DNA of 64,000 bases from Candidatus Binatia bacterium (GTDB lineage: Bacteria > Desulfobacterota > Binatia > HRBIN30): NCBI GenBank assembly GCA_026415395.1, contig JAOAHD010000010.1, positions 1 through 64,000 on the forward strand, given 5' to 3'. A program made the translations under genes and the position numbers. This document shows, piece by piece, positions 1-18,609 of the stretch; the stretch's first letter is position 1; every line of letters begins with the position of its first letter. The notes under the pieces were generated by a model. It saw only the letters and a list, made by a program, of their open reading frames with translations, was not told where the DNA came from and made no database searches.

Positions 1-170
1 CCTCTCGGGGAACGTGTGCCCTCGGGCTACTCCACCGAGCGGGTGCATGAACCCGCTCTGGTCTCAAACCCCTCTCGGGGAACGTGTGCCCTCGGGCTGA
101 TGATTAAAAAGATTGAAGTCGTCAATGATTCTCGTCTCAAACCCCTCTCGGGGAACGTGTGCCCTCGGGC
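1..170 (-). CRISPR. Leader-proximal end of a CRISPR array (3 repeats, 2 spacers, cut by window edge)
   Basis: Two full 37-nt repeats lie at 61-97 and 134-170, with the last 27 nt of a third at 1-27; they are identical where they overlap. Spacers are 28-60 (33 nt) and 98-133 (36 nt). Read on the minus strand, each repeat holds two short hairpins (GCCC-GA-GGGC and CCCC-GAGA-GGGG) and ends in TTTGAGAC, which fits the 8-nt 5' crRNA handle left by Cas6 in type III systems. On that basis I infer leftward transcription, with the leader to the right and these as the newest spacers. Spacer 98-133 is AT-rich (11 G/C of 36), unlike the host, as expected of foreign DNA. The array continues off the left edge. 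Confidence 0.95.
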
Positions 171-841: not shown

Positions 842-2047
842 ATGTACAGCGGCTCCACTTACTTGGTCGCCGTCGCCGGCGTGCAAGCGAAGCGGATTGT
901 CGAGGCGTTTTATGCACTCACGGTCGCAGCACCCAAACCCGTGAAGATCGAGCGCATCGACGTGATCGGAACCCAACGCGTGTGGGATGCCTACCGCGCC
1001 ACACTCGGGCCTCACGCGAGCATTCTCTCAAAGGTCGCTCGGCAACACGGGATCTGTGTACCCGAACTCCGCTTCCATCTCCTCACGAACCCCTCGGGCA
1101 CAGAGCCGCTCCGCGATTTGCTGACCACCGACGATAACATGGCAGCATGGCGACAAGTCCTCGAAATCGTTCGGACGCTCATCGCCGAGAGCAGCACCCT
1201 GCTTGGGGTATGTGCTGGCGCCCGCCAAGCGCTGCGGCAAGCGCTGACCCTCGCCTTTCAACTTTTGGCCCGACCGCAAGATCGCCTCTTCGACATCCGC
1301 GTGCGCGGACTGCTTGCCGAAGCGCGTCCCACCGCGGGCCGTGCACGGCGCTCCACACCAAGAGTGGTCCTCAGCGAGCTTCCGTTTCTACGTGTGCAGG
1401 AATTACCCCGCCGCGCGGACGCCCTCGAGCAACCTACCCTCGTCGCCGCTGTGCAACCGGGGCTTGACGATCATCCCCAGCCGAGCCTGGAGTTCCACCT
1501 GGACGAACGGGGAACGCTCACCCGCGTAGTCGTGGACGGTCGCACGCTTTGGCCCAATCGGCTGCGGATCCGCTTGCGCCAACGCGATCTTGTTCTTTGG
1601 CTTCACCTCGCCCAATTGCGGAAACAGCACTGCCCAGCGCCCTCATCCGTGGTGACCGCTCCTCCCTGCCACCGCGTGGCCGATGCGCAGGAAATCCCCA
1701 AAGATGCGGAAACGGCGCAGTGGGCACCGTTGCCAGAGGCCAAGGGCGCTCGCTCGGGGTTGGATCCGCACACCGGCGCCGCCAACGGCTCCCCGATCCG
1801 CCCCTGCCCTTGTTGCTTCCGTGAGGCTGCTCAGCTTTCCGCGTTCGTGCCTGAGAGTGACCGCGAGCTTCCCGACGAATATGTCCGGCAAGCCATGTCC
1901 CGCATCAAACGCGCCCTATCCCAGTTCGGCTTGCCCTTGGCTCACCTCGAGGCTGTCAGGTTTCGCGGCGCTGGGAGCCGCCCGCATACGTCCTACGGAA
2001 TCCATCTCGACCCCGACCGCATCACGATCCGGACCCCCAATCCCTAA
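842..2047 (+). CDS. Degenerate NE0113-family CARF protein (CRISPR accessory, paralogue of 6742-7899)
   Basis: The product is 401 residues. The start is ATG at 842 because GGGAGGCAGGG precedes it; an in-frame start at 329 would add non-homologous residues. The N-terminus (LVAVAGVQAKRIVEAFYAL, residues 8-26) matches the NE0113 family opening seen in the gene at 6742. Residues 122-131 align with that protein's AGGRKT loop, LSELPFLRV (177-185) with its LAELPFLRL, and both carry a late Cys cluster (CPCC at 322-325 here). The ligand-loop residues differ (SSPQV becomes VQAKR, AGGRKT becomes CAGARQ). The NE0113 family belongs to the CARF cyclic-oligoadenylate-binding group. I infer a CARF protein with altered or lost ligand chemistry. 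It is the first gene of the cas operon. Confidence 0.7.
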   Translation: MYSGSTYLVAVAGVQAKRIVEAFYALTVAAPKPVKIERIDVIGTQRVWDAYRATLGPHASILSKVARQHGICVPELRFHLLTNPSGTEPLRDLLTTDDNMAAWRQVLEIVRTLIAESSTLLGVCAGARQALRQALTLAFQLLARPQDRLFDIRVRGLLAEARPTAGRARRSTPRVVLSELPFLRVQELPRRADALEQPTLVAAVQPGLDDHPQPSLEFHLDERGTLTRVVVDGRTLWPNRLRIRLRQRDLVLWLHLAQLRKQHCPAPSSVVTAPPCHRVADAQEIPKDAETAQWAPLPEAKGARSGLDPHTGAANGSPIRPCPCCFREAAQLSAFVPESDRELPDEYVRQAMSRIKRALSQFGLPLAHLEAVRFRGAGSRPHTSYGIHLDPDRITIRTPNP

Positions 2048-2141: not shown

Positions 2142-3365
2142 ATGACAGAGCAACGCATCCACGAAACGGGCCAATCCCCCGGAGTGGAGGCGGTGAGGCA
2201 GTGGAAGAACCAGGGGAATTGGGAAGAGATCGCTAAGCAATTACCGGAAATTCAGCGACCCGTCCAGGTAGCCCAAGCCGACCTCGCAAGCGAGGTGGGA
2301 TTTGCGCTTACCCAACTCGGGCGCCTGGAAGAGGCCCGGGCTCTCTACACCGAGTTGTACGAAGCTGCCCCAAGCCATCGCATCGCCAGCGGACTGGCCT
2401 ACATCCACTACCTCGCTCTGCTGCAGCACAAAATCAAAAAGCCGCGGCTGAACGACCCAGAATCCTGGCGAAGGGGTTTCGAACGTTGGATTGCGGAAGC
2501 GCTGCGCTTGGAACCGAAATCCCTGAAAGACAAGTATCGGCTAGCCGTTTACCACGCGAGTATCCTGGCGCAAAAAGATGCAGTGGCCCTCCGGCTGTTC
2601 CGCGAAGTGATCGGTCTGTTCGAGGCCCTGCCAGAAGAGGTGCGGAACGAACAGCACCGGTACTTTAAAACTTACGTCATGGCGCTTTACGGTGCGGCTC
2701 GCTCCGCTTATCGCCTAAAGCGCTACGAAGATGCACGCCGGTACATCTATCGCTGCATTCGCGTGGACAAGAATCGCAACCACCAAGAACCCCTCTTCAA
2801 ATTTTTCCTGGCGGGAAAAGTCCTGTTTGCTCTGGGCGAGCATGCCGACGCGGAACGCGCATTGCGGATCGCGTTGGAGCATGCCCGACATCGCGAACAC
2901 GATTTCGTTTATGCCCTCCTGGCAGAAATTGCCTTAGCGACGAACCGACCCGCCGACGCCGTCAATTGGCTGGAGTCGAACGTCCGACCGCACCACCGAA
3001 AGCCGTACATTTGGCGACTGCTGGGCGATGCGGAACTCGCCCGCGGGGAGCGGCGGCGCGCATTGAAGCTCTACAAAAGTTCGCTGTTGAAAGATCACGT
3101 CGGCCGCCACCTGACGTTGTTCAAGATGGGGCAGATTTACGAGAGCATCCGCGAATTCGGCGAGGCGCGCCGCTGTTATGAGCAGGCAGCCGACTTCCGG
3201 CGCCGGCGCTACGTGACCGAGTATCCGGAAGCACTGGAGGCGCTTGCCAAGCTCTGCGAGCAGCAAGGAGACATCGAAGGAGCACGTAACGCTTACAAGA
3301 GAATGGCTCTGCTGCCAACGTTTGCGGATCGTGCTCAGGCTGAACTCGCCCGACTGGCAGGCTAG
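2142..3365 (+). CDS. TPR-repeat protein of the CRISPR adaptation module
   Basis: The product is 407 residues, almost wholly helical, with tandem tetratricopeptide-like units. Examples are LTQLGRLEEARALYTELYEAAP (positions about 57-78), AYRLKRYEDARRYIYRCI, LFALGEHADAERALRIALEHA and REFGEARRCYEQAADF. There is no signal peptide, membrane segment or catalytic motif, so it is probably a cytoplasmic scaffold. Start ATG 2142 is the first Met before the helical part; the upstream frame is not conserved-looking and the ribosome site is weak. It lies 36 nt before the primase gene, whose own N-terminus is TPR-like. Known CRISPR-associated primases carry a TPR domain fused to the polymerase, so I infer this protein works with the primase and Cas1-Cas2. 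Confidence 0.8.
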   Translation: MTEQRIHETGQSPGVEAVRQWKNQGNWEEIAKQLPEIQRPVQVAQADLASEVGFALTQLGRLEEARALYTELYEAAPSHRIASGLAYIHYLALLQHKIKKPRLNDPESWRRGFERWIAEALRLEPKSLKDKYRLAVYHASILAQKDAVALRLFREVIGLFEALPEEVRNEQHRYFKTYVMALYGAARSAYRLKRYEDARRYIYRCIRVDKNRNHQEPLFKFFLAGKVLFALGEHADAERALRIALEHARHREHDFVYALLAEIALATNRPADAVNWLESNVRPHHRKPYIWRLLGDAELARGERRRALKLYKSSLLKDHVGRHLTLFKMGQIYESIREFGEARRCYEQAADFRRRRYVTEYPEALEALAKLCEQQGDIEGARNAYKRMALLPTFADRAQAELARLAG

Positions 3366-3401
3366 CAACAGCGGGCAAGCAAATTTGTTTTGGGGGCAAC
3401 A

Positions 3402-5141
3402 ATGGCAACGCGAGAGAGCAGTTCCTCTTCAGTCGCCTCAGGACATCTCGCACTCGCTGCGCGTGCAGCAGCGGAGGGCAATTATGCGCTCGTCAAAGAG
3501 CTCTACGCGGCTGCTGCAGCAGCGGGTGCGGTAGAGGGCGAGCGCGCGAAGTGGGCCTTGCTCCTGATCGAAGCGGGCGAACTCGAAGAGGGCTGGAGGC
3601 TCCAGGGCCAGCAGCCGGAAGGCATCCTGAGCCAAGAGAAGGGCTCGCAGCCGGAATCAGAGGACACGGGAGACGACTTTCTCACCTTCGAGGCCACTCC
3701 CCGCGTGGATCAGGGGAAGACACCATCCACGGACACTGCGTTGATTGAGCTCTTTCGACGTTGGTTCGCCGGCCGTGGCGATGTTTACGCGCGCCAATGG
3801 TACGACGCTCGCAACGATCGAACGGGCTATGTCCCTGTGCGAGAGCCGCTCGACGATCGCGTGATTGCCCAACACCTCGAAGGGCGCATCACCATTGGTC
3901 AGTACCTTCTATATCCAGACCACCACGTAAGTTTTGCCGTGATCGACCTTGACCCGACAAGTGCAGCCCTCGAGCAAGCACGCCTGGAACAAACGGATGA
4001 GCTTGGCGGCTTGGGCTTACCCGCACTGCGTGAGTACGCCAGTCGCATCGTCCGTACGGCGAGAGAGCTCGACGTGCCCACTTTGCTGGAGGACACGGGT
4101 GGGGCAGGGTTGCACATTTGGATCTTTTTTGCCCCGCGTGTTCCTGCCCGCCGTGCCCGTGCCTTCGTGCGCGAACTGCTCTGGCGCAGTGGGTCGCAAC
4201 CGGCGAGTGTCGTGGTGGAGATCTTCCCGAAGCAAGACGAACTTACCGGCAAGGGTCTCGGCAACCTCGTGAAGCTGCCGCTCGGGGTACATCAAGCAAC
4301 CCTTCGCCCCTCGCGCTTCTTGCAAGGTGAAAGTCTGGAACCCCTACCAGAGCTGTCTGCCCTGCGGAGCGTTTGCCCGGTGGATCCGGTGATCTTTGAC
4401 CGACTGCTGAACGACAGAGTGGTACCGCTGCGTCCCCTGCAAGCGCCAACTCCAACGCCGCAAGAGCCAAGTCTTCCGACGAGTCCCCTGGGTTCTCCCC
4501 GCGCGTTAGCCGAAGCCCTCGCGGCCATCGAGAGCCGGAAGCCCGTGGCGGAAGCCGTCGACCGCGTTTTGGAAAACTGCGCCGTGCTGAGAGAGCTCGC
4601 GCGGAGGGCGCTCGAAGGGGAGCCCCTACCTACGACGGGGTTGAGGTGCCTGCTCTACAGCATTGGCCTCATTGGCCGCGACAATCCCGTCATCGAGCAA
4701 ATTTTTGCGCGCACGGGTGCAAGCAGAAAGGAGCTAGAGCGGGTCCGCCGTGGCCTACAGTCGCCAGTGGGCTGCAGGCGCCTCAAGGAGTATTTTCCAC
4801 AACTTGCCGAGCGATGTAGCTGCCCTGAGGTACCGGAGGCCGGCTACGCCACTCCGGTGCTGTTTGCACTCTCGGGTTCGCCCCACTTCCACCGCCGCGA
4901 ACCTTTGTCTCCAGTAGCAGCCGATGAATGGCTGGGATCGGATTTCCCCGACACGGGGAGCTCGAAGGAGGAACTGCGCAAAATCATCGCCCGGTTGGAA
5001 GAGGTCGAAAAGATCCTGCGTGAACTTCTCGGGCGTCCGCCATCCAACCCATCTACTCCGGAGAGCTCCGCACCGCCTTGGGAGCCCGCCACCGAAGCTG
5101 CCGAAACCTCGCCTTCGGGTGGACGGTCTCCCAAGACCTGA
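3402..5141 (+). CDS. CRISPR-associated AEP primase-polymerase (CAPP/TOTE-type primase)
   Basis: The product is 579 residues. Residues about 14-75 form a TPR-like helical region. Residues about 115-300 form an archaeo-eukaryotic primase core: motif I FAVIDLDP (Asp182 and Asp184, metal ligands), motif II GGAGLHIW (His238), and VVEIFPKQDEL (Glu273) followed by GNLVKLPLG. The C-terminal helical part has Cys393, Cys416, Cys458, Cys472 and Cys474, resembling the Fe-S or zinc end of PriL-type primase domains. It matches the family called TOTE-type AEP or CRISPR-associated primase-polymerase, which makes primers and DNA and is linked to spacer acquisition. ATG 3402 follows a GGGGG stretch; an upstream TTG at 3390 is possible. 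It sits 87 nt before cas1, and no reverse transcriptase is present. Confidence 0.88.
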   Translation: MATRESSSSSVASGHLALAARAAAEGNYALVKELYAAAAAAGAVEGERAKWALLLIEAGELEEGWRLQGQQPEGILSQEKGSQPESEDTGDDFLTFEATPRVDQGKTPSTDTALIELFRRWFAGRGDVYARQWYDARNDRTGYVPVREPLDDRVIAQHLEGRITIGQYLLYPDHHVSFAVIDLDPTSAALEQARLEQTDELGGLGLPALREYASRIVRTARELDVPTLLEDTGGAGLHIWIFFAPRVPARRARAFVRELLWRSGSQPASVVVEIFPKQDELTGKGLGNLVKLPLGVHQATLRPSRFLQGESLEPLPELSALRSVCPVDPVIFDRLLNDRVVPLRPLQAPTPTPQEPSLPTSPLGSPRALAEALAAIESRKPVAEAVDRVLENCAVLRELARRALEGEPLPTTGLRCLLYSIGLIGRDNPVIEQIFARTGASRKELERVRRGLQSPVGCRRLKEYFPQLAERCSCPEVPEAGYATPVLFALSGSPHFHRREPLSPVAADEWLGSDFPDTGSSKEELRKIIARLEEVEKILRELLGRPPSNPSTPESSAPPWEPATEAAETSPSGGRSPKT

Positions 5142-5228
5142 TGTGACAGCGAGCTGGGACACAGTGTCGCTTGTCGGGCGGTTTGCGTTCGATACACGGA
5201 CAAATTCACTCGACTCTTGGGGGGTAGG

Positions 5229-6236
5229 ATGAAAACAGCGTACATCACAGAACCGGGGGCCACCGTGCGCCGAAACGGCCCCGTACTCGAAGTCTGGCTC
5301 GGAAACATCAAGCGCACAGAACTTCTCGTCCATGATCTGGATCAGCTTGTCTTGATGGGCAACATCTTGGTTACGCCCGCAGTTCTCGACTTTCTCGTCA
5401 ACGAACGGATCGACACGGTGTTTTTGTCCCTGCACGGCAAGTTTCGCGGGCGGCTCATGCACCATCACTCGAAGAACGTCACCTTGCGGCTTGCCCAGTA
5501 CGATGCGCTGCGCGACAAGGGGCGCGCGCTCGAATTTGCCCGGCGGATTGTGCACGGGAAAATTGCCAATATGCGCGCCTTCTTGTTCAAGGCTGCGCGG
5601 CGGCACAGCGCTGGGGCGCCACTGACCGAAACCGCCCACCGACTCGGAGCGGTGCAGGAACAGCTTGCCGAAGCCTCGACGCTAGATGAAGTTCGCGGCT
5701 TCGAGGGGCGCGCTTCCGCTCTGTATTTCGAAGTGTTCAACGTGCTCCTGAAGAATCCGGATTTCGAGTTCTCCGGGCGGAACCGGCGGCCGCCGCTGGA
5801 TCCGGTGAACGTCTTGCTCTCCTTAGGCTACACCCTGCTGGCCAACGCGGTGGAAACGGCCGTGCAAATCGTGGGGCTCGACCCGTACGTCGGCGCCCTC
5901 CACGAAATTGCTTACGGCCGACCGTCGCTGGTGTGCGATCTCATGGAGGAATACCGGGCGATGATTGTGGATCCGATGGTGGTCGCATGCATCAACCAGC
6001 GAGTGTTCACCACCAACGACTTCGAACCCGGGCAAGAAGGAGAGCCCATCCGTTTCAAACGAGAGGCGATGAAGTACTTCATCGAACTCTTTGAACGGCG
6101 CCTCCGCAACGAAATTTTGTATCCGCCAAGGAATCAGCGGCTCAAGTACCGCCAGGTGATCGAGGAGCAAGTGCGGCACTTCGCTCGGTGCGTTCTCGGT
6201 CAGGAGCAACGCTACGAACCATTCGTCGTGCGCTAA
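5229..6236 (+). CDS. cas1: Cas1 spacer integrase
   Basis: The product is 335 residues, the usual Cas1 size. Cas1 with Cas2 captures prespacers and inserts them at the leader end of the array. The three metal ligands are visible: Glu168 in YFEVF, His225 in GALHE and Glu240 in CDLMEEYR, with the typical N-terminal beta domain before them. The start is ATG 5229, directly after GGGGGGTAGG; a TTG at 5217 in the same frame is less likely. It follows the primase gene and precedes cas2 by 23 nt. It is not fused to a reverse transcriptase, Cas4 or Cas6. Confidence 0.97.
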   Translation: MKTAYITEPGATVRRNGPVLEVWLGNIKRTELLVHDLDQLVLMGNILVTPAVLDFLVNERIDTVFLSLHGKFRGRLMHHHSKNVTLRLAQYDALRDKGRALEFARRIVHGKIANMRAFLFKAARRHSAGAPLTETAHRLGAVQEQLAEASTLDEVRGFEGRASALYFEVFNVLLKNPDFEFSGRNRRPPLDPVNVLLSLGYTLLANAVETAVQIVGLDPYVGALHEIAYGRPSLVCDLMEEYRAMIVDPMVVACINQRVFTTNDFEPGQEGEPIRFKREAMKYFIELFERRLRNEILYPPRNQRLKYRQVIEEQVRHFARCVLGQEQRYEPFVVR

Positions 6237-6259
6237 TTGAGACCTGGAAGGAGGGGGCA

Positions 6260-6538
6260 ATGTTCACGGTGATCGCATTTGACATCTCCGACGATCGTGT
6301 GCGCTACCGTGTGGTGAAAGCGCTGAAAAAGTACGCGGTCCGCGTGCAAAAGTCTGTGTTCGAGGCACCGCGGCTGCCGGAAAATCACCTGCGGCGCCTG
6401 CAACGGCAGGTCGAGAGGCTGATCGACCCGAAGACGGACCGAGTACGCTACTATTTTCTCTGCGCCGCTTGCAAACCGCGAATCGAAAGTTGGGGGCGTG
6501 GCGAGGTCACAGAGTACGAGGAATTTCGCGTGATCTAA
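6260..6538 (+). CDS. cas2: Cas2, structural partner of Cas1
   Basis: The product is 92 residues with the Cas2 ferredoxin-like opening MFTVIAFDISDDRVRYRVVK (Asp8 is the conserved acidic residue), then KSVFEA and the C-terminal YYFLCAAC strand. Cas2 bridges two Cas1 dimers in the integrase complex. ATG 6260 is chosen over an upstream frame-open start at 6188 because GGAGGGGG immediately precedes it and the fold begins there. It ends the adaptation gene set; about 200 nt of non-coding DNA follow before the next gene. Confidence 0.96.
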   Translation: MFTVIAFDISDDRVRYRVVKALKKYAVRVQKSVFEAPRLPENHLRRLQRQVERLIDPKTDRVRYYFLCAACKPRIESWGRGEVTEYEEFRVI

Positions 6539-6741
6539 ACTCACCCTCTGCCGAGGACACCGGTCAGAAGAGCAGTCCAGAGTCGCGGGCTGCACCTGGC
6601 CACACCAAAAGCCGAAGGGCACAACGACAGGCGGGTTGCTGAGCGCCCCTGCCAGGTCTCGCCCGCAGCACACAATGGTTTGGCAAATCTTGACAACGCA
6701 GCACCTTTCCACGTATGTGCCCGCCTCGAGTGGTGCAGACG

Positions 6742-7899
6742 ATGGGGTGGGAGAGGACGCTGCTGTTCGTTGCCGGATCGTCCCCGCAGGTGATCACCGA
6801 AACTGTGTGGGCTCTCTGCCGGCAACGGCCCGTGCCGCGCACGCAAGTGTTCGTCATTACCACCACTGCGGGGCGAGACCACATCGAACAACGACTACTG
6901 AGGAGGGGCGGTCCGTGGTCGAGGCTCCAACGCGACTACCCAGCCGCACGCAATTTCCACTTCAATCGCAAGCAGGTGCTCGTGCTGCCAGGGCCGGACC
7001 GGCAGCCGCTCGATGATGTTCGCAGCGAAGCCGACAGCAAGGCTGCCGGGGACTTCATTCTGGATTTCGTTCGCAACCACACAAGACCGGAGCACCCTCC
7101 CCTGCACGCTTCCATCGCGGGCGGGCGAAAAACGATGGGCTATCTGCTCGCCACCGCAATGGTTTTGTTTGGCCGCGTGGACGACCGCTTATCGCATGTG
7201 CTGGTGCGTCCCCCGGAGCTGGAGGGCAGTTCATTTTTCTACCCGCCACCACGGGGCCGCTTTGTGAAGGCCGAGACCCCGGCCGGCAAAACAATTGAGG
7301 TTCAGCTGAAAGACGTGTCGATCGATCTTGCCGAACTCCCCTTTTTGCGCTTGCGGCTTTGGCAAGATAGCCGCGACCTCGCCGCAAACAGTTTCTCTGA
7401 GCTTGTTCAGCGTTTGCAGCAGCGTTTGGGCCAGGTTGTGCGGCCTACTGTTGAAATCGATGTGGCGCTCTGCCGCTTGGTGTGTGGTGGTGAAGCCATC
7501 CACGTTTCTCCCCTGCGGGTAGGGATCTACGCGCTTCTTGCGCGGCGGCGGCAGAGCCATCTTCCCGGGAGCGTTTGCGCTGGTTGCTCTAGGTGCTTCC
7601 TGCCGGCTGAAGAAATCGGGCGGGGTTTCAGAGAAGAACTCCGCACGCTCATGCAACAGCTGAAGAGTGTGGCAGTTGGGAAAACGTGGTCAGAGCGCAA
7701 CTTCCGCCCGGAAATTTCCAAACTCAATGCGCTCCTCGAAGAAAAGCTGGGCAGTGCGAGCAAACCGTACGAAGTGCAAATCAGAGGAGAACGCGGCCAA
7801 CGTCTTTACGGTATCGCCGCGGCACCAGAACTCCTGATAGTCAGTGGCCTGCCAACCATTGGTGGCAATGTTGCCACGAGTGCCACAGCGGTTGCGTAA
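6742..7899 (+). CDS. NE0113-family CARF protein (Csm6-like / ring-nuclease family)
   Basis: The product is 385 residues from ATG 6742; ATG 6715 is an equally open alternative and neither has a clear ribosome site. Residues 6-24 (TLLFVAGSSPQVITETVWA) and AGGRKT (126-131) are the two ligand-loop signatures of the NE0113 CARF family. This family sits with type III systems and is often annotated as CRISPR-associated ring nuclease Csm6. It should bind, and perhaps cleave, cyclic oligoadenylate made by Cas10. The C-terminal half has a Cys cluster (CAGCSRC) and no HEPN motif that I can see. The last 40 bases of the gene contain copy 2 of the 25-bp motif. It has a degenerate paralogue at 842-2047. 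Confidence 0.85.
   Translation: MGWERTLLFVAGSSPQVITETVWALCRQRPVPRTQVFVITTTAGRDHIEQRLLRRGGPWSRLQRDYPAARNFHFNRKQVLVLPGPDRQPLDDVRSEADSKAAGDFILDFVRNHTRPEHPPLHASIAGGRKTMGYLLATAMVLFGRVDDRLSHVLVRPPELEGSSFFYPPPRGRFVKAETPAGKTIEVQLKDVSIDLAELPFLRLRLWQDSRDLAANSFSELVQRLQQRLGQVVRPTVEIDVALCRLVCGGEAIHVSPLRVGIYALLARRRQSHLPGSVCAGCSRCFLPAEEIGRGFREELRTLMQQLKSVAVGKTWSERNFRPEISKLNALLEEKLGSASKPYEVQIRGERGQRLYGIAAAPELLIVSGLPTIGGNVATSATAVA
7852..7876 (+). promoter_or_regulatory. Copy 2 of the 25-bp CCAAC-N6-TGGCAAYGTTGCCA motif
   Basis: CCAACCATTGG (7852-7862) is followed by TGGCAATGTTGCCA, whose T at 7863 is next to that run; the symmetric part is 7863-7876 with one central mismatch. It lies inside the 3' end of the NE0113 gene and 99 nt before the GTG of cas10. 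The 14-mer is identical to that at 22516-22529. Confidence 0.55.
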
Positions 7900-7974: not shown

Positions 7975-10900
7975 GTGACGAACGTCGATCGCTGGACTCT
8001 CAAGATTCACGCGTTTTTGCACGACCCACCCCATAAGCCACTTGCTTTGGGGCGGGGCCACGCGGCACAAGGAGCCAGCATCGCCGAGCGCATCACCGAA
8101 AAAGCACTCAGCAACGGCACTGCCAGCCTCATTGCGACAGCGGACCACCTGGCCGCAGGGGCTGACCGGCAGAGCTGGCTCGCGCAATTTCGCGTCGACC
8201 CGAAACAGCAACTGCAACTCATCCATCCGCTCGAAGGAAAGCCCATCTTGCAACCCGGAACGCGCAGGGGCCAAGCGTTCGAGCTGGTCTTTCCGACTGA
8301 GTGCGTCGATGCGGCCGAACGCATCGGCGCACAACTGCCAGGGGTGATCGGAGAGCTACCGAATAACCGCCTGCGCTTCCTAGTCTTGTGGCGTTTCCTG
8401 CCTGAGCTCCTCGCACGGATGGAAGGACGCCAGCGAAATCTAGGCTTGCTTTGGCCGCTCTTACCTGCCGATTCCCGCATGCCCGATCACTCGGTTCTCA
8501 TTCATGATTCCTTGGTTTCCGCCTTGGCGACGATTTTAGACCAAGGCACCAAAGCTGCCCTTCTCCGCGTACAGTTTGCACCCGTGCAGGACTTCATCGA
8601 AGCCTCGCGAAAACTTCGCGATCTCTGGGCTTCGTCGAGCATCCTGGCCGAAACCACTTGGTGCGCCATGGAAACAATCGTCGAGGAGTTTGGTCCGGAT
8701 CACGTGCTGTTCCCCAGCTTACGCGACGAGCCCCGTTTCGACCGCTGGTTACTTGGCCAACCACAGCTGCGGGAGTGCGCACCGGAGGATCCTGGCAAGC
8801 GGCAGCAGTCGCCGCTGTGGGCCGTGTTCGATGAGACCGAGCGCTATCTCCCCCGTGCGCTGCGTACGCCTTCGCTCCCGAACGTGTTCACCGCTGTCAT
8901 TCCCTACGAGCAGGCCGAAGAGATAGCCCGAAAGGTTGAGAAGAAAGTGCGTGCGTTTTGGGAAGACAGCGTTCGCCAAGCAGGGGACTGCGCAGGCGAA
9001 GGACAAGAGTACGGCGAACGGGCGCGCGAGCAAGCGCAAGCCTTGTTGCAAGTGTTCTGGAGCGTGGTGCCGTGGCCGCTCGACCAAAGTCCTCGAACTT
9101 GGGTCGCGTCAACCCATGAGACTTGCTGGCACAAGCGTACCCCGATTGTTTCTGAGGCGCTGGCAACCATCGACACCGTAGAGGAAGTGTTCTCCGGGTA
9201 CGAACCCAATGCTGGCCTCCTGTATCCGGACATAACCGACCAGGCCACGTTGCTGGTTGACGCGGTGAAACGTGAGCGGGCGCAGCACGTTAGCGACGAA
9301 GGTGGGCTCAAGTGTAGTTGCTGCGGCGAGCGGCAAGTGCTTGGCGGCAATGACTTTTGGATCCAACGGACCGAAGGGCTTGCCAAACGCAAGGACCGCA
9401 AGCGGCTCTCCGAAGGCGAACAGCTTTGCGGACCTTGCACATGGAAGCGCCTATTCGAACTGGAGGGTTTGCGCGAGGAGGATTCCGGCCCCTTCGGCCC
9501 TCGCCACCCCTCCACCGGAGATGTTGCCGCAGCCCAGTTCAAGCTGGACGTGATTCTGGCCTGCAGAGACGGCAACAAGAAGCTCCTAGAGAAGGTGAAA
9601 GCTTTCGTTGACGCGGTACAGGCTGATGTGAGCGAAGGAAGGCTAGATGAAGGGGATACCCGAGTGTTCTGCCCCCAGGCGGTGGATCTGGCAGCGCGGA
9701 AATCGGAGGAAAAGACACTGATTGAGTTTGCCCGAATCGACGGTCAGTGGCTGTTGGACTTCCCGCGCGAAGAGGCACCAGAGGCGAAGCCGGAGGAAAC
9801 GCTGCGCGCGGCGCGAGAGCTGCGGCGCGCGGCTGCTGACGCCAACATCGATGCGCCGCGCCCGTACTTGGCGGTGATCGATTTCGACGGCGACAGCATG
9901 GGGAAGTGGCTTTCGGGGACGCATGAACACTTCCCGAGAGTCTTACAGACTCTACACACGAAGGTCGTCGAGATGCTCAAGGCCGACCACCCCGCGGGCT
10001 GGCAAGCCCTCGCCGAACGCCCACGCTTCCTCAGCCCCGCCTTCCACGCGTCGTTGAGTGCAGCCGCTGCAACATTTGCTCGCGTGGCAGCACCGATGAC
10101 CATCGAAGGGGAGGCGCTACCGGGACACCTCATTTACGCTGGCGGCGACGATGCCTTGTTCCTGGCCCCCGTTCCAGTCGCCCTAGAGCTTGCTCTGCGG
10201 TTGCGCCTGCGTTTCTCCGGCTGGCCCAAGAAGTTCGAATCACTCCTTCTCAAAGCGGATGAGAGTAACTTTGCAGGGTTCCGCGAATTGCTTCGTAGCC
10301 ACTTCAATACGCCGAGCGCTTGGACCTTGGCGACGTTCGGTACGCAAAGTGGTCGCCCTGAGCCTGCCGACCAGTGGGAACAGGTGAGGAAAGTGGGCCT
10401 TGCCTTCGGCACGAACGCAACCGCATCCGCTGGGATGTGCGTGTTCCATTACCGCTGGCCCTTGGGTTCGGCGTTGCGAATGGCTCGGGAGGCCCTGAAT
10501 GCTGCCAAGCAGGTAGCGCGGAACTCGCTCGGGATCATCGTGCAGCGGCGTTCGGGTTCGATCAGTCGGACCGTCTTGCCCTTTTTCCTCAAAGACACAT
10601 CGGACCAAGCCTCCTCGCCAACAATCTTTCCGGTGCTGAGCCTCATCGAGGCAACCGCAGCGTTCATGAAGGAGGAACAAGGGGTGTCCGCGCGCCTTGC
10701 AACCGCGTTCCGAGAGGAGATCGCAGCCCTCCACATCGAACCGCGAGCGGGCAGACTGCCCGGAACAAAGCGCGCTGACAGCCAACTCTGGGACATTGGG
10801 GAAGCACTGGCACGGCGTGTGGTTCTCCGGCGAGACTTGGCTGGGAGCAAGCGGTCGGACGAGTCGAAAAAAGAAAATCCCGTGCGCGATTACCTCGAGC

Positions 10901-11028
10901 GAGTGGTCCTCGACCTCGGCCGCGGTGTACGGGCAACCTGTAAGGACAACCCAGTGCAGGCTCTGTTCGAATGGAGCGAAGCGTTAACTGTGGCAGCATT
11001 TTTGGCACGACCTGGGGAGCGGGGGTGA
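7975..11028 (+). CDS. cmr2: Cas10/Cmr2, signalling subunit of the type III-B complex
   Basis: The product is 1017 residues, from GTG 7975 behind AAGGAGAAAC. The N-terminus has the Cmr2 opening KIHAFLHDPPHK (His16-Asp17) and TADHLAAGADR (56-65), an HD-like region. RVQFAPVQDFIEASRKLRDLW (about 198-218) is typical of Cmr2. Cys447, Cys449/450, Cys485 and Cys488 form a probable zinc site. The cyclase palm carries IDFDGDSMG (635-643) and AGGDD (722-726), so cyclic-oligoadenylate synthesis should be intact. Target RNA binding by the Cmr complex would switch on this activity and thereby the CARF proteins encoded nearby. It is separated from cmr3 by 3 nt, so the cmr genes form a tight operon. Confidence 0.96.
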   Translation: MTNVDRWTLKIHAFLHDPPHKPLALGRGHAAQGASIAERITEKALSNGTASLIATADHLAAGADRQSWLAQFRVDPKQQLQLIHPLEGKPILQPGTRRGQAFELVFPTECVDAAERIGAQLPGVIGELPNNRLRFLVLWRFLPELLARMEGRQRNLGLLWPLLPADSRMPDHSVLIHDSLVSALATILDQGTKAALLRVQFAPVQDFIEASRKLRDLWASSSILAETTWCAMETIVEEFGPDHVLFPSLRDEPRFDRWLLGQPQLRECAPEDPGKRQQSPLWAVFDETERYLPRALRTPSLPNVFTAVIPYEQAEEIARKVEKKVRAFWEDSVRQAGDCAGEGQEYGERAREQAQALLQVFWSVVPWPLDQSPRTWVASTHETCWHKRTPIVSEALATIDTVEEVFSGYEPNAGLLYPDITDQATLLVDAVKRERAQHVSDEGGLKCSCCGERQVLGGNDFWIQRTEGLAKRKDRKRLSEGEQLCGPCTWKRLFELEGLREEDSGPFGPRHPSTGDVAAAQFKLDVILACRDGNKKLLEKVKAFVDAVQADVSEGRLDEGDTRVFCPQAVDLAARKSEEKTLIEFARIDGQWLLDFPREEAPEAKPEETLRAARELRRAAADANIDAPRPYLAVIDFDGDSMGKWLSGTHEHFPRVLQTLHTKVVEMLKADHPAGWQALAERPRFLSPAFHASLSAAAATFARVAAPMTIEGEALPGHLIYAGGDDALFLAPVPVALELALRLRLRFSGWPKKFESLLLKADESNFAGFRELLRSHFNTPSAWTLATFGTQSGRPEPADQWEQVRKVGLAFGTNATASAGMCVFHYRWPLGSALRMAREALNAAKQVARNSLGIIVQRRSGSISRTVLPFFLKDTSDQASSPTIFPVLSLIEATAAFMKEEQGVSARLATAFREEIAALHIEPRAGRLPGTKRADSQLWDIGEALARRVVLRRDLAGSKRSDESKKENPVRDYLERVVLDLGRGVRATCKDNPVQALFEWSEALTVAAFLARPGERG

Positions 11029-11031
11029 GGC

Positions 11032-12186
11032 ATGGACATTCTGGAATTGGAACCGCTGGATGTGTTTTCCATCCGCTCGGCGCGCCCGTTCGATGTCGGC
11101 GGCGTCGTGCATGCGGATTTCGTGTGGCCGCCACCAGCTTGGACTGTAGTCGGCGCGCTCCGCGGCGTGCTCGCGGAACTCCTCGGCCTCCCCGCGGTGG
11201 AGTATGGCCGAGCTGGGTCAAACCATCCGCGGTTCGCCAACGTGGTCGACCGCATCGGCAAGCCCGATGGCCCTGCCAAGTTTGTCATCGGCCCTGCACT
11301 CGTGTTGGATGTCGAAACGCAGAGCCTGCGATGGCCTGTACCGGCAGATGTCTTCGCCGTGCGGGAAGGCACCCTCAAACTGCGGCGTCTCCGTGCCACG
11401 CTCCTGCCGCGCGAATGCCAGTGCAATTTCAAGCAGGGACGCACGTGCGTGCTCGCTCCGCCTTCGGATCTCTCAGCGCACCCGGAAAAATCTCTTCCCC
11501 TCCGAGCCTTCGACTCAGGTTTGCTCTTGGAGTGGCTATCCGGCAAGGAGACGTTGGAGCTCGGAGCCCGCAGCGCACAAGACTCCAGTCCAGATTTTTT
11601 CACCGAGCCGCGCATCGGGATCTGCATGGACTCGACAGCGAACACAGTACGGGAAGGCCTGTTCTATATGCGTAGCGCCGTGCAGCTTGCTCTCGGGCGC
11701 AGCCTCGCGGTTCCATTGCTCGATCGAGGCGACGGCCTGCCTTGGGAGGCCCTGCAGGGCCAAGTTGCGCGCTTCGGGGCCGACGGGCACTTGGTACGCC
11801 TTCGGCCGCCGCGCCCGTTCAACCTTCCGCCGGCGCCGGGAGATCGGCCGCTCAAGCGCGCGCGCATCCTTTGTGCTGCACCGATCCACCCAGGAGACTT
11901 GGACAACATCGAGGTGGAGGGCCATCAGGTCCGCGTTCTCGCGGTCGCGGCAGGGAAGCCGGTACGCATTGGCGGCTGGCGGCTGCTGACTGTGCGGCGC
12001 AACGGAGCGGAAGTCGAGCAAGGCCCCCGCACTTTGCGAACGTACTATCCGGCGGGAACGGTGCTGTACGTCGAGTCGGACGGCGATTTGAGAAAGCTCC
12101 ACGGGCAAAACCTCGCCCAATGCGAGGAAGAACGGGCTGCAGGGTTTGGATTCGCACTCGTAGGGCAGTGGCCAGAGCAAGTTTAG
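11032..12186 (+). CDS. cmr3: Cmr3 (Cas5-group RAMP of type III-B)
   Basis: The product is 384 residues. The N-terminal LEPLDVFSIRSARPFDVGG matches the Cmr3 signature in which a D/R-x-R-PF segment follows the first beta strand, and PPAWTVVGALRG is the usual next helix. Cmr3 binds the 5' handle of the crRNA and contacts Cas10. It starts 3 nt after the cas10 stop and ends 14 nt before cmr4. Assignment rests on this signature plus gene order; overall length is normal for the family. Confidence 0.92.
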   Translation: MDILELEPLDVFSIRSARPFDVGGVVHADFVWPPPAWTVVGALRGVLAELLGLPAVEYGRAGSNHPRFANVVDRIGKPDGPAKFVIGPALVLDVETQSLRWPVPADVFAVREGTLKLRRLRATLLPRECQCNFKQGRTCVLAPPSDLSAHPEKSLPLRAFDSGLLLEWLSGKETLELGARSAQDSSPDFFTEPRIGICMDSTANTVREGLFYMRSAVQLALGRSLAVPLLDRGDGLPWEALQGQVARFGADGHLVRLRPPRPFNLPPAPGDRPLKRARILCAAPIHPGDLDNIEVEGHQVRVLAVAAGKPVRIGGWRLLTVRRNGAEVEQGPRTLRTYYPAGTVLYVESDGDLRKLHGQNLAQCEEERAAGFGFALVGQWPEQV

Positions 12187-14873: not shown

Positions 14874-15935
14874 ATGAAGAGCCAAGAAACACTAGAGGCA
14901 CAACTTCGCATCGTCACACCAGTGTTCTGTGCTGGCGCGGAGCAGAACGGTGCGTCCGAAATCCGCCCCTTCAGTATTCGCGGGGCGCTGCGCTGGTGGT
15001 ATCGGGCAGTTGCGGGAGATTCCCTTAAGGAAGAGGCTTCTGTATTCGGCGCTACGACCGGCAACGGCACGGCCTCTCCGATCGCTCTGCAACTCGGGTC
15101 CTGGCTTTCCGAAGAAACTCCTCTGGACGACCGATTGCAACCAAAAAGGGCACCGGAGTCAGGGGCAGCGTACCTGGGCTACACCTTGTACCTCGGCAGC
15201 AACAACAGAAAGGCGGTGACTCCGGGTAAAGAGCCAGTCACCCTCCGACTCCGGTGGAATTGGAAGCCCGCGTCAAGTGAGAGGCAGCAATACATCCGGA
15301 GGGCCTGGGCTGCGTCGTTGTGGCTTTTCGGTCACCTGGGCGGCTTGGGCACTCGGGCACGTCGCGGCTTCGGCACCCTCGCGTTGGAAAATTGGACCGG
15401 CTGGGAGGAGGAAACGGGTCTACTCGGCACCGCACACGGGGCCGCGTCGCCAGAGCAATGGAAGGAGCGCTTCGACAGCGGATTCCAAAAGATTGGTCAA
15501 TGGTTTCCGGCACCGACCGGCGCTTTGCATCAGCACGTGAGCCAGAACCTGCAAGTGTATCTGTGGAGAACGGGCAAGCGGAGCTGGGATCAGGCTCTCG
15601 ACGAAATCGGGAAGGTTTTCCAAGACTTTCGGAGAAGACCGGAAATTCATCGGCCGGAGCTTCTTGCCGCCTTTGGGTTGCCCATTCGTTTCCGCCGCCA
15701 CCCTGCCCGGTTCGCGCGGCCGGAGAAGTTCAATCGCGCGGCCTCGCCGTTGCAAATTCGGGTGGTTCCAATCGGGAGCAACTACCACCCGATGGTCTGG
15801 CGCGCGGCAGGCCCACTCGTGCCAAAGCAAGAGCTCCGGCTGTCGTACTCAGGCCATTACTCGGACCAGCCGCCGAGAGAGTGGGATCGCGCCCTTGAGC
15901 AGTTCCTCGACCACATCCGACCGCACTGCGTCTGA
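14874..15935 (+). CDS. cmr1: Cmr1 (Cas7-group RAMP, filament cap)
   Basis: The product is 353 residues. The N-terminal pattern LRIVTPVFCAGAEQNG followed by EIRPFSIRGALRWWYRAVAG is the strongest known Cmr1 signature (RPxSIRGxLRWWWR in the family). GGLGTRARRGFGTL gives the RAMP glycine-rich loop near residue 160. Cmr1 sits at the end of the Cmr filament and binds the 3' end of the crRNA. It starts 4 nt after cmr6, and its stop codon TGA overlaps the ATG of cas6, so the two are translationally coupled. Confidence 0.95.
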   Translation: MKSQETLEAQLRIVTPVFCAGAEQNGASEIRPFSIRGALRWWYRAVAGDSLKEEASVFGATTGNGTASPIALQLGSWLSEETPLDDRLQPKRAPESGAAYLGYTLYLGSNNRKAVTPGKEPVTLRLRWNWKPASSERQQYIRRAWAASLWLFGHLGGLGTRARRGFGTLALENWTGWEEETGLLGTAHGAASPEQWKERFDSGFQKIGQWFPAPTGALHQHVSQNLQVYLWRTGKRSWDQALDEIGKVFQDFRRRPEIHRPELLAAFGLPIRFRRHPARFARPEKFNRAASPLQIRVVPIGSNYHPMVWRAAGPLVPKQELRLSYSGHYSDQPPREWDRALEQFLDHIRPHCV

Positions 15936-16878: not shown

Positions 16879-18609
16879 ATGGGAAAGACGATCCTCCTCA
16901 GTGCGCTCGGCAAAGGGAATTATTCTAAGCGCGACTACGAATACCACGACCGGACATACACTACCTCCTACGCACCTGTGGCAACGGCAGCCTTGGCTTT
17001 CGAGCCAGAAGAGAGGGCCGACTTGTCCGTGCGCCTGCTCAGTACAACCGAAGCAAAGGAAAAGCACTTCGGCGGCATTCAACAGGCTTTCCGCGACTTA
17101 AACATCGAAGACGTGGAATTTCGGGAAGTTCCGGAAGGAGCTGACCTCCAGGGCACCTCAACCATCTTACGAACCCTCGTCGATGTTGTTCCACCCGATG
17201 AAACGGCGAGCGTGGCGGCGGATGTGAGCCTCGGCTTTCGCCATCTCCCTCTGCTTTATGTTGCGGCTTTGGCGTACTTGGTTGGACTCACTGGCATACG
17301 CGTCCGCGGAATTTACTACGGCGCCGCGGACCTAGTCCCGCCGCCAGAAGCCTGCCCCATTCTCGACCTGACTCGGGTTTTCGAGTTCCTCCAGTGGTAC
17401 CAGGCGCTGGCAGCACTCAGCGAGACTGGCCGGGCACAAGGGCTGGCTAAAGTTCTGCGCCATCACGTGCGCAACTTGTTCGTTTCGTCTCCCGGGACGC
17501 CGACCCCTTCCCGCACGCTATCTTCACTGCGCGACGCGGCGGAATCCTTGGCAACTCCTCTTGCCTGCGGGCTTCCGCTCGAGTCCGGCATGGCCGCGAC
17601 GAAGCTGCTGGCTCTTCTCGGTCGAGCTGCGCAGGAAGCCCCCGATGAGGGGTTGTTTGCCGGCCAGAAGTTAGCCGGAATTGTGCAAAGTTGGGCGCTC
17701 GATGCCGCTGTGGAGAACAAGCGCAACGTGGCGCTCACAGAGGGAGAATTGCGCCGGCAGTGGGCGTTTATCCGCTGGTGCTTTGAGCACAACGACTTTG
17801 CCAACTGCTTCGAGGCCTTGCGCGAGTGGGTCGTGAACCTTGTACTGTGGCGACAAGGTAGAACCGCGAATTGGCTCGACTACGACTCGCAGCGCAAGCC
17901 AGCGGAACGGCTTCTCAACGCGCTGAGCTACCGCGTCCGGAACAACTTTGGGCAGTGCACTGCGACTCAAAGGGCGTTGGCCAGCACTTGGGACAAGATT
18001 TCGGAAAAGCGCAATTTACTCGCCCATGCGGGGATGAAGGCAACGGAAGTCAAAGTGGCTCCACAGCCGGTGGCGGCTCTACTTCAGGAAGCCGAAGAGC
18101 TTCTCACGAGTGTCACCGAAATGGATGTTCGACTTGTCGGCACACGGACTGTACTCGTGGCTGCCTTGGGGCGATCGCCGGGAGCCTTGTTTACCGCGCT
18201 TCACCATGTGCGGCCACAAATGCTCATCGTGTTGACCTCTCAGGAGAGTGTCGCACGGCTGGAGGCAACCTTAGCTGCTGCAGACGCAACAACGATCGAG
18301 ACCCTACCCGTTGTTTTGGAAGATCCTTACCGCGCATTTCGCCAAGCCGAACGTGTGATCGAGCAGTGCCGCCCTTCCCTCCTTGTCGCCAGCAGGCTGG
18401 TGGTCAATCTCACCGGCGGTACGACCGCCATGCAGTACCTCGCCGAGCGGGTTGCAGACGAGGCAAAACGGCTAGGAACACCGGTGCAACGGGTTGCCGT
18501 GTTAGATGAACGGCCGCAAGCAGCGCAGCAGGCGGATCCTTTCCAACTCGGTGCCATCGAATGGATCGATGGACCTCCAGAGTCACACGGTTCCAACTCC
18601 TCGGCGTGA
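16879..18609 (+). CDS. CARF-HEPN-CARF protein (Csx1/TM1812-like RNase with a second CARF domain)
   Basis: The product is 576 residues. Residues 1-165 form a TM1812/Csx1-like CARF domain: KTILLSALGKGNY at the start and ADVSLGFRHLP at 114-124, the position of DxTHGFR in the family. Residues about 175-410 are helical and carry the HEPN RNase motif R378-N-L-L-A-H383 in EKRNLLAHAG. Residues about 418-563 form a second Rossmann/CARF unit: TVLVAALGRSPGALFTAL (424-441) and VVNLTGGTTAM (508-518), the phosphate-loop pattern of Card1/Can1-type CARF domains. It should be an RNase switched on by cyclic oligoadenylate, with two ligand sites per chain. It ends the cas operon, 5 bp from a convergent gene. 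Confidence 0.85.
   Translation: MGKTILLSALGKGNYSKRDYEYHDRTYTTSYAPVATAALAFEPEERADLSVRLLSTTEAKEKHFGGIQQAFRDLNIEDVEFREVPEGADLQGTSTILRTLVDVVPPDETASVAADVSLGFRHLPLLYVAALAYLVGLTGIRVRGIYYGAADLVPPPEACPILDLTRVFEFLQWYQALAALSETGRAQGLAKVLRHHVRNLFVSSPGTPTPSRTLSSLRDAAESLATPLACGLPLESGMAATKLLALLGRAAQEAPDEGLFAGQKLAGIVQSWALDAAVENKRNVALTEGELRRQWAFIRWCFEHNDFANCFEALREWVVNLVLWRQGRTANWLDYDSQRKPAERLLNALSYRVRNNFGQCTATQRALASTWDKISEKRNLLAHAGMKATEVKVAPQPVAALLQEAEELLTSVTEMDVRLVGTRTVLVAALGRSPGALFTALHHVRPQMLIVLTSQESVARLEATLAAADATTIETLPVVLEDPYRAFRQAERVIEQCRPSLLVASRLVVNLTGGTTAMQYLAERVADEAKRLGTPVQRVAVLDERPQAAQQADPFQLGAIEWIDGPPESHGSNSSA

Follow-up and report, generated by a model that had tools for sequence, protein, structure and literature searches.

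A separate TPR protein encoded beside a CRISPR-associated primase-polymerase, cas1 and cas2 in a Candidatus Binatia bacterium

A four-gene cluster and its conserved TPR partner

The window analysed here, a stretch of 64,000 nucleotides of contig JAOAHD010000010.1 from a Candidatus Binatia bacterium (assembly GCA_026415395.1), carries four genes in a row on the plus strand, which encode a tetratricopeptide repeat (TPR) protein, a CRISPR-associated primase-polymerase (CAPP), Cas1 and Cas2, with intergenic gaps of 36, 87 and 23 nt. The main subject of what follows is the TPR gene, which we find to be a conserved neighbour of CAPP. A sequence-only reading of the window had described the four genes as consecutive on one strand, the primase as coupled to Cas1-Cas2 and as carrying Asp182, Asp184, His238 and Glu273 plus C-terminal cysteines, and the cluster as having no reverse transcriptase (RT). 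All of this was borne out: coordinates and family matches agree with the layout, the coupling is seen in the adjacency of the genes, the residues are conserved across active CAPPs, and no RVT_1 match was found anywhere in the window's genome, which is 95.8% complete. The absence of an RT is ordinary for CAPPs of the CAPP-TPR type and is no peculiarity of this locus.

By sequence, we assign the primase to CAPP_A sensu Zabrady et al. 2021 (PMC8211822), because it scores 224 bits against the NCBIfam model NF040561, 'CRISPR-associated primase-polymerase type A1' (cut-off 200; model positions 113-509 of 515 matched), because it matches the catalytic domain structures of MpCAPP and MsCAPP (PDB 7nqd/7nqf) with E=2e-23, and because its catalytic and cysteine residues are conserved. 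With residues counted from the ATG at 3402, D182, D184, H238 and E273 show little or no variation in CAPPs with an intact site, a few distant ones having D for E273, and the same is true of C393, C458 and C474 of the C-terminal domain among active CAPPs. The gene context used to define CAPP_A was also found, the primase gene adjoining both cas1 and cas2. A selenocysteine was considered for the in-frame TGA of two relatives (L065, 7433-9220, and L135) and rejected: the codon sits in the linker between the AEP and C-terminal domains and aligns with no conserved cysteine, which points to a broken or misread gene.

The TPR gene was followed through the genomes of its phylum. With the window protein as query (E<=1e-15), a search of 297 genomes gave 17 matches in 16 genomes, all beside CAPP, and a 20-sequence profile run over 395 genomes of this one phylum, within which the exclusivity holds, gave 21 positive genomes with CAPP adjacent in 21/21. 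All full-length members scored E<=1e-133, a single contig-end fragment fell between that value and 1e-20, and no generic TPR protein reached 1e-20 in the 395 genomes. Across 39 non-redundant loci the gene order is mostly TPR-CAPP-cas1-cas2, with cas1-cas2-TPR-CAPP (L140, L141), CAPP-cas2-TPR-cas1 (L093) and TPR-cas1-cas2-CAPP (L151) also present. We regard the TPR gene as part of the cas1-cas2 module because it is kept in the cluster despite this rearranged gene order; the claim that its product belongs with CAPP-Cas1-Cas2 thus stands on constant adjacency and on retention through rearrangement. The TPR and CAPP genes overlap by a four-base stop/start in L058, L118, L140 and L153.

The family is colinear from end to end in the 20-sequence alignment (A3), with invariant residues along its full length (Y132-R133, D209, K220, D318 and H323), and the window protein is modelled as an all-alpha superhelix of about ten helical hairpins (mean predicted local distance difference test score, pLDDT, 92). 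Bacterium HR30 (L090), the closest relative that the species collection contains, has a gene order identical to that of the window; the two TPR proteins are 85% identical, against 68% for the CAPPs, and the ratio of nonsynonymous to synonymous substitution rates (dN/dS) of the TPR gene, about 0.02-0.07, indicates purifying selection, though it is rough, with dS near saturation. The HR30 cas1 (L090:7476-8568) is broken across two reading frames, by a frameshift or an assembly error. One further locus, L055 (G295:C73, 6377-11273), has paralogues of the TPR partner on both sides of CAPP, the second with an in-frame TGA, and no cas1 or cas2 within its 16-kb stretch.

TPRs in cis and in trans across CAPP loci

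The primase had also been credited with a short TPR-like N-terminus, and the structure model agrees, placing two helical hairpins (H7-24/H28-40 and H45-57/H61-67) ahead of the catalytic domain, although the difference in size to the TPR region of MpCAPP (aa 1-100, three repeats; PMC8211822) is small. This region is modelled with pLDDT of about 66-87, the mean of the whole model being 70; it gave no Pfam TPR match, and the NF040561 alignment starts no earlier than residue 103.

For the comparison across loci, 91 were assessable, 39 CAPPs with a partner TPR gene and 52 without. The stretches used to call the partner absent differed in length (of the 57 'absent' loci, 30 have less than 3 kb downstream). 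Pfam TPR_14 matched the CAPP N-terminus in 8/39 loci with the partner gene and in 50/52 without (Fisher p about 1e-14), and the median consensus-TPR score was 0 bits with the partner and 21 bits without (p=4e-14), both p-values being too strong because the tree discussed below shows one split. Pfam TPR_2 behaved in the same way (2/39 versus 42/52). Judged from these sequences, TPR content shifts between cis and trans across CAPP loci. The partner occurs in lineages whose CAPP has lost most of its own repeats, and the window CAPP, too, no longer has canonical TPRs at its N-terminus. Several low-scoring CAPPs counted as lacking the partner, from Riflebacteria/Ozemobacter, do have another TPR protein encoded upstream: in L127 (1702-3558), L155 (141-1376) and L165 (328-2157) the gene immediately before CAPP encodes a different TPR/DUF7017 protein, and the CAPP itself has poor cis TPRs. 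These loci possibly show the same arrangement, built with another TPR family.

The sequence-only reading had called the window's arrangement a split form. Functionally this is roughly right, with a TPR in trans instead of one in cis (degenerate versus canonical over the 91 loci), but the 407-aa superhelix is no excised piece of CAPP, and CAPP retains N-terminal helices. The partner is far larger than the cis TPR domain that it would replace, and a simple split, in which the partner would be the excised N-terminus, was rejected because it does not agree with the partner's length and family.

Genomic setting and comparison with known systems

The features of the locus are collected in Table 1. 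On one side the module is flanked by a truncated CRISPR array and an NE0113-type gene, and downstream of it lies a type III-B (Cmr) operon. The CRISPR repeat was found nowhere else in the window's genome, the rest of which was searched by repeat pattern only. Where the Cmr operon ends (16879-18609) we observed a CARF-like protein whose N-terminal half is of the TM1812 type and whose C-terminal half is again CARF-like, though weakly so (TIGR02221, TIGR02710). The genome also encodes a second Cas1 (G000:C16:314630-315490, L170); the open frame that contains it is 602 aa long and may encode a Cas4-Cas1 fusion.

Table 1. Features at the CAPP locus, in positions of the window (aa, amino acids).
Feature	Position	Strand	Basis or remark
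CRISPR repeats, 37 nt, GTCTCAAACCCCTCTCGGGGAACGTGTGCCCTCGGGC, two complete	61-97 and 134-170	.	repeat families D1/D2
Third CRISPR repeat, end only	1-27		array truncated by contig end
Cas_NE0113 (ring nuclease/CARF-like) protein, divergent, upstream of TPR gene	842-2047	+	Pfam E=8e-9; TIGR02584 below cut-off
CAPP-partner TPR protein, 407 aa	2142-3365	+	Pfam TPR_2 E=2e-20
CAPP, class CAPP_A/A1 primase-polymerase, 579 aa	3402-5141	+	Pfam AEP-TOTE E=8e-43; NF040561 over cut-off
CAPP short N-terminal region, two TPR-like helical hairpins (aa 7-67)	3402-3605	+	structure model; no Pfam TPR match
CAPP AEP (Prim-Pol) catalytic domain, aa 115-318, with D182, D184, H238, E273	3744-4355	+	Pfam; conserved columns
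CAPP C-terminal (PriCT-like) domain stretch with C393, C458, C474	4578-4823	+	conserved columns
cas1	5229-6236	+	Pfam E=3e-91; TIGR00287 over cut-off
cas2	6260-6538	+	Pfam E=3e-21; TIGR01573 over cut-off
NE0113-family CRISPR ring nuclease (Csm6-like CARF)	6715-7899	+	TIGR02584 182 bits
cas10/cmr2 of adjoining type III-B operon	7975-11028	+	TIGR02577
cmr3	11032-12186		type III-B operon; TIGR01888
cmr1	14874-15935		type III-B operon; TIGR01894

The closest described counterpart is the CAPP_A of the CAPP-TPR type (Marinitoga piezophila MpCAPP, AEX84846; PMC8211822; NF040561), which shares with the window the AEP core with D-x-D, H and E, a cysteine-containing PriCT-like C-terminal domain, a short N-terminal helical TPR-like region, the order CAPP-cas1-cas2, the type III-B setting and the lack of an RT. 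The window differs from it in its degenerate N-terminal repeats with no Pfam TPR match, in the separate TPR protein encoded upstream, and in that no Argonaute gene was recognised beside its cas2. The window CAPP is about 17-29% identical to the other aligned members, HR30 excepted. CAPP_A proteins with cis TPRs (e.g. L075, L134 and L143; same phylum, Myxococcota and Planctomycetota) have the same catalytic and C-terminal domains and the same coupling to cas1-cas2, but carry three to four canonical TPRs in one chain, with no partner gene found. TPR proteins are also encoded in other CRISPR loci, namely Csx29 (TPR-CHAT) and the Cas12-linked TPR-DUF3800 proteins (PMC10028731, PMC10910872); those, however, contain enzymatic domains and are associated with effectors, whereas the window protein consists of TPRs only and lies in an adaptation cluster.

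In CART-CAPP fusions (Caloramator australicus; PMC10415136) a Prim-Pol domain is likewise coupled to Cas1-Cas2, but these have an RT domain, and the Prim-Pol was inactive in the two tested (PMC10415136), whereas the window CAPP has an intact Prim-Pol site and no RT. A clade of 12 CAPP relatives in the same phylum (support 100; L063, L069, L070, L072, L077-L079, L081, L083, L085-L087) no longer has any of the active site, with no D-x-D, GxH histidine or FPK motif. Nearly all of its members still have the C-terminal cysteines, and the usual neighbours are cas1 and then two tandem cas2 genes. This clade differs from the RT-fused inactive Prim-Pols (PMC10415136), since among 13 genomes with such a CAPP no RT was found in 9, and in the remaining 4 the contig carrying CAPP gave none. 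Could these proteins be catalytically dead and kept as a structural part?

Proposed role of the TPR protein

We consider it probable that the window encodes a type III-B adaptation module using CAPP_A, in which the separate TPR protein stands in, acting in trans, for the cis TPRs of other CAPPs. A role in docking Cas1 is proposed because MpCas1 binds MpCAPP through aa 1-360, that is, through its TPR and AEP parts (PMC8211822). The TPR protein would dock CAPP onto Cas1-Cas2, perhaps also binding CAPP itself or the DNA substrate; CAPP held on Cas1-Cas2 would copy single-stranded DNA (ssDNA) fragments into double-stranded DNA (dsDNA) prespacers, and these would then pass on for integration. MpCAPP is known to carry out DNA-dependent priming and extension on ssDNA templates, with strand displacement (PMC8211822).

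Several observations weigh against this interpretation. Locus L163 combines canonical TPRs in cis with a separate TPR gene, though a different one, and the eight of the 39 partner-positive CAPPs counted above still match a cis TPR. In a tree of 106 CAPPs built with the N-terminal columns removed, a single branch (support 82) separates the partner-positive rows, along with their unassessable relatives, from the rest, so the correlation between cis and trans TPRs is essentially a single evolutionary event, in which the loci are not independent cases and the p-values overstate; an independent replication of the switch was looked for and not found, the tree giving one split. In MpCAPP the contact with Cas1 was mapped only to TPR and AEP together, whereas the TPR fragment was seen mediating self-association, which runs through the TPR and the C-terminal domain (PMC8211822). 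Finally, the partial correlations of distance matrices (0.62 for TPR-CAPP versus 0.41 for TPR-Cas1) hold only with the three most divergent loci included, and co-evolution measured in this way was set aside as uninformative after their removal.

Other roles for the TPR protein could be considered. It may act on the substrate side, binding nucleic acid, or else a host nuclease/helicase (RecBCD-like), and delivering ssDNA fragments to CAPP instead of bridging CAPP and Cas1, and the invariant residues, the length of the partner relative to the cis region that it would replace and the basic isoelectric point (pI) of all 20 aligned partners (8.3-9.6; 9.6 in the window) are compatible with this; a basic pI alone is nevertheless a weak indication, and TPR superhelices mostly bind proteins. 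A Foldseek search with the model returned generic TPR scaffolds only, the closest being protein-binding folds such as OGT and APC/C subunits, though one Ski complex subunit appears among them, and on balance we find the substrate-side role unlikely. Less likely still is a service to the type III effector or to CARF signalling, with the proximity to CAPP due only to a shared operon: the window TPR gene does lie between an NE0113-type gene and CAPP, upstream of the Cmr operon, but the gene always adjoins CAPP/cas1/cas2, usually directly upstream of CAPP, while the flanking CARF and cmr genes vary, and the partner is missing where CAPPs with canonical cis TPRs likewise stand beside type III genes. 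The full version of the sequence-only reading, a split CAPP making prespacers from RNA-derived fragments, takes up the separate TPR gene and the shortened cis TPRs but is very improbable, given that the CAPPs published so far use DNA as their template for priming and extension and that priming by MpCAPP on RNA is not efficient (PMC8211822), that the genome has no RT, and that the partner is unlike an excised CAPP domain.

Returning to the TPR protein as a replacement in trans for the cis TPRs, we hypothesise, more tentatively, a two-protein CAPP, in which the TPR superhelix may be an obligate second subunit in a large lineage (Desulfobacterota-like, HR30-like and, with another TPR family, possibly Riflebacteria); it would take on the docking of Cas1 and would thereby control when CAPP gets prespacer DNA. 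The primase family and its link to Cas1-Cas2 are already published, and PMC10910872 lists links of AEP/PrimPol to adaptation modules. A full-text search of papers found no mention of a separate TPR partner of CAPP or of an exchange between cis and trans, supplementary tables lying outside that search, so that an unlabelled listing there is possible; the TPR gene as a conserved CAPP partner is apparently new and so far undescribed. CAPPs are leading candidates for the step that turns ssDNA debris into the double-stranded prespacers needed by Cas1-Cas2. A conserved extra subunit that replaces the TPRs of CAPP itself would offer a clean handle on it, since removing one gene should uncouple DNA synthesis from integration while leaving both catalytic centres untouched.
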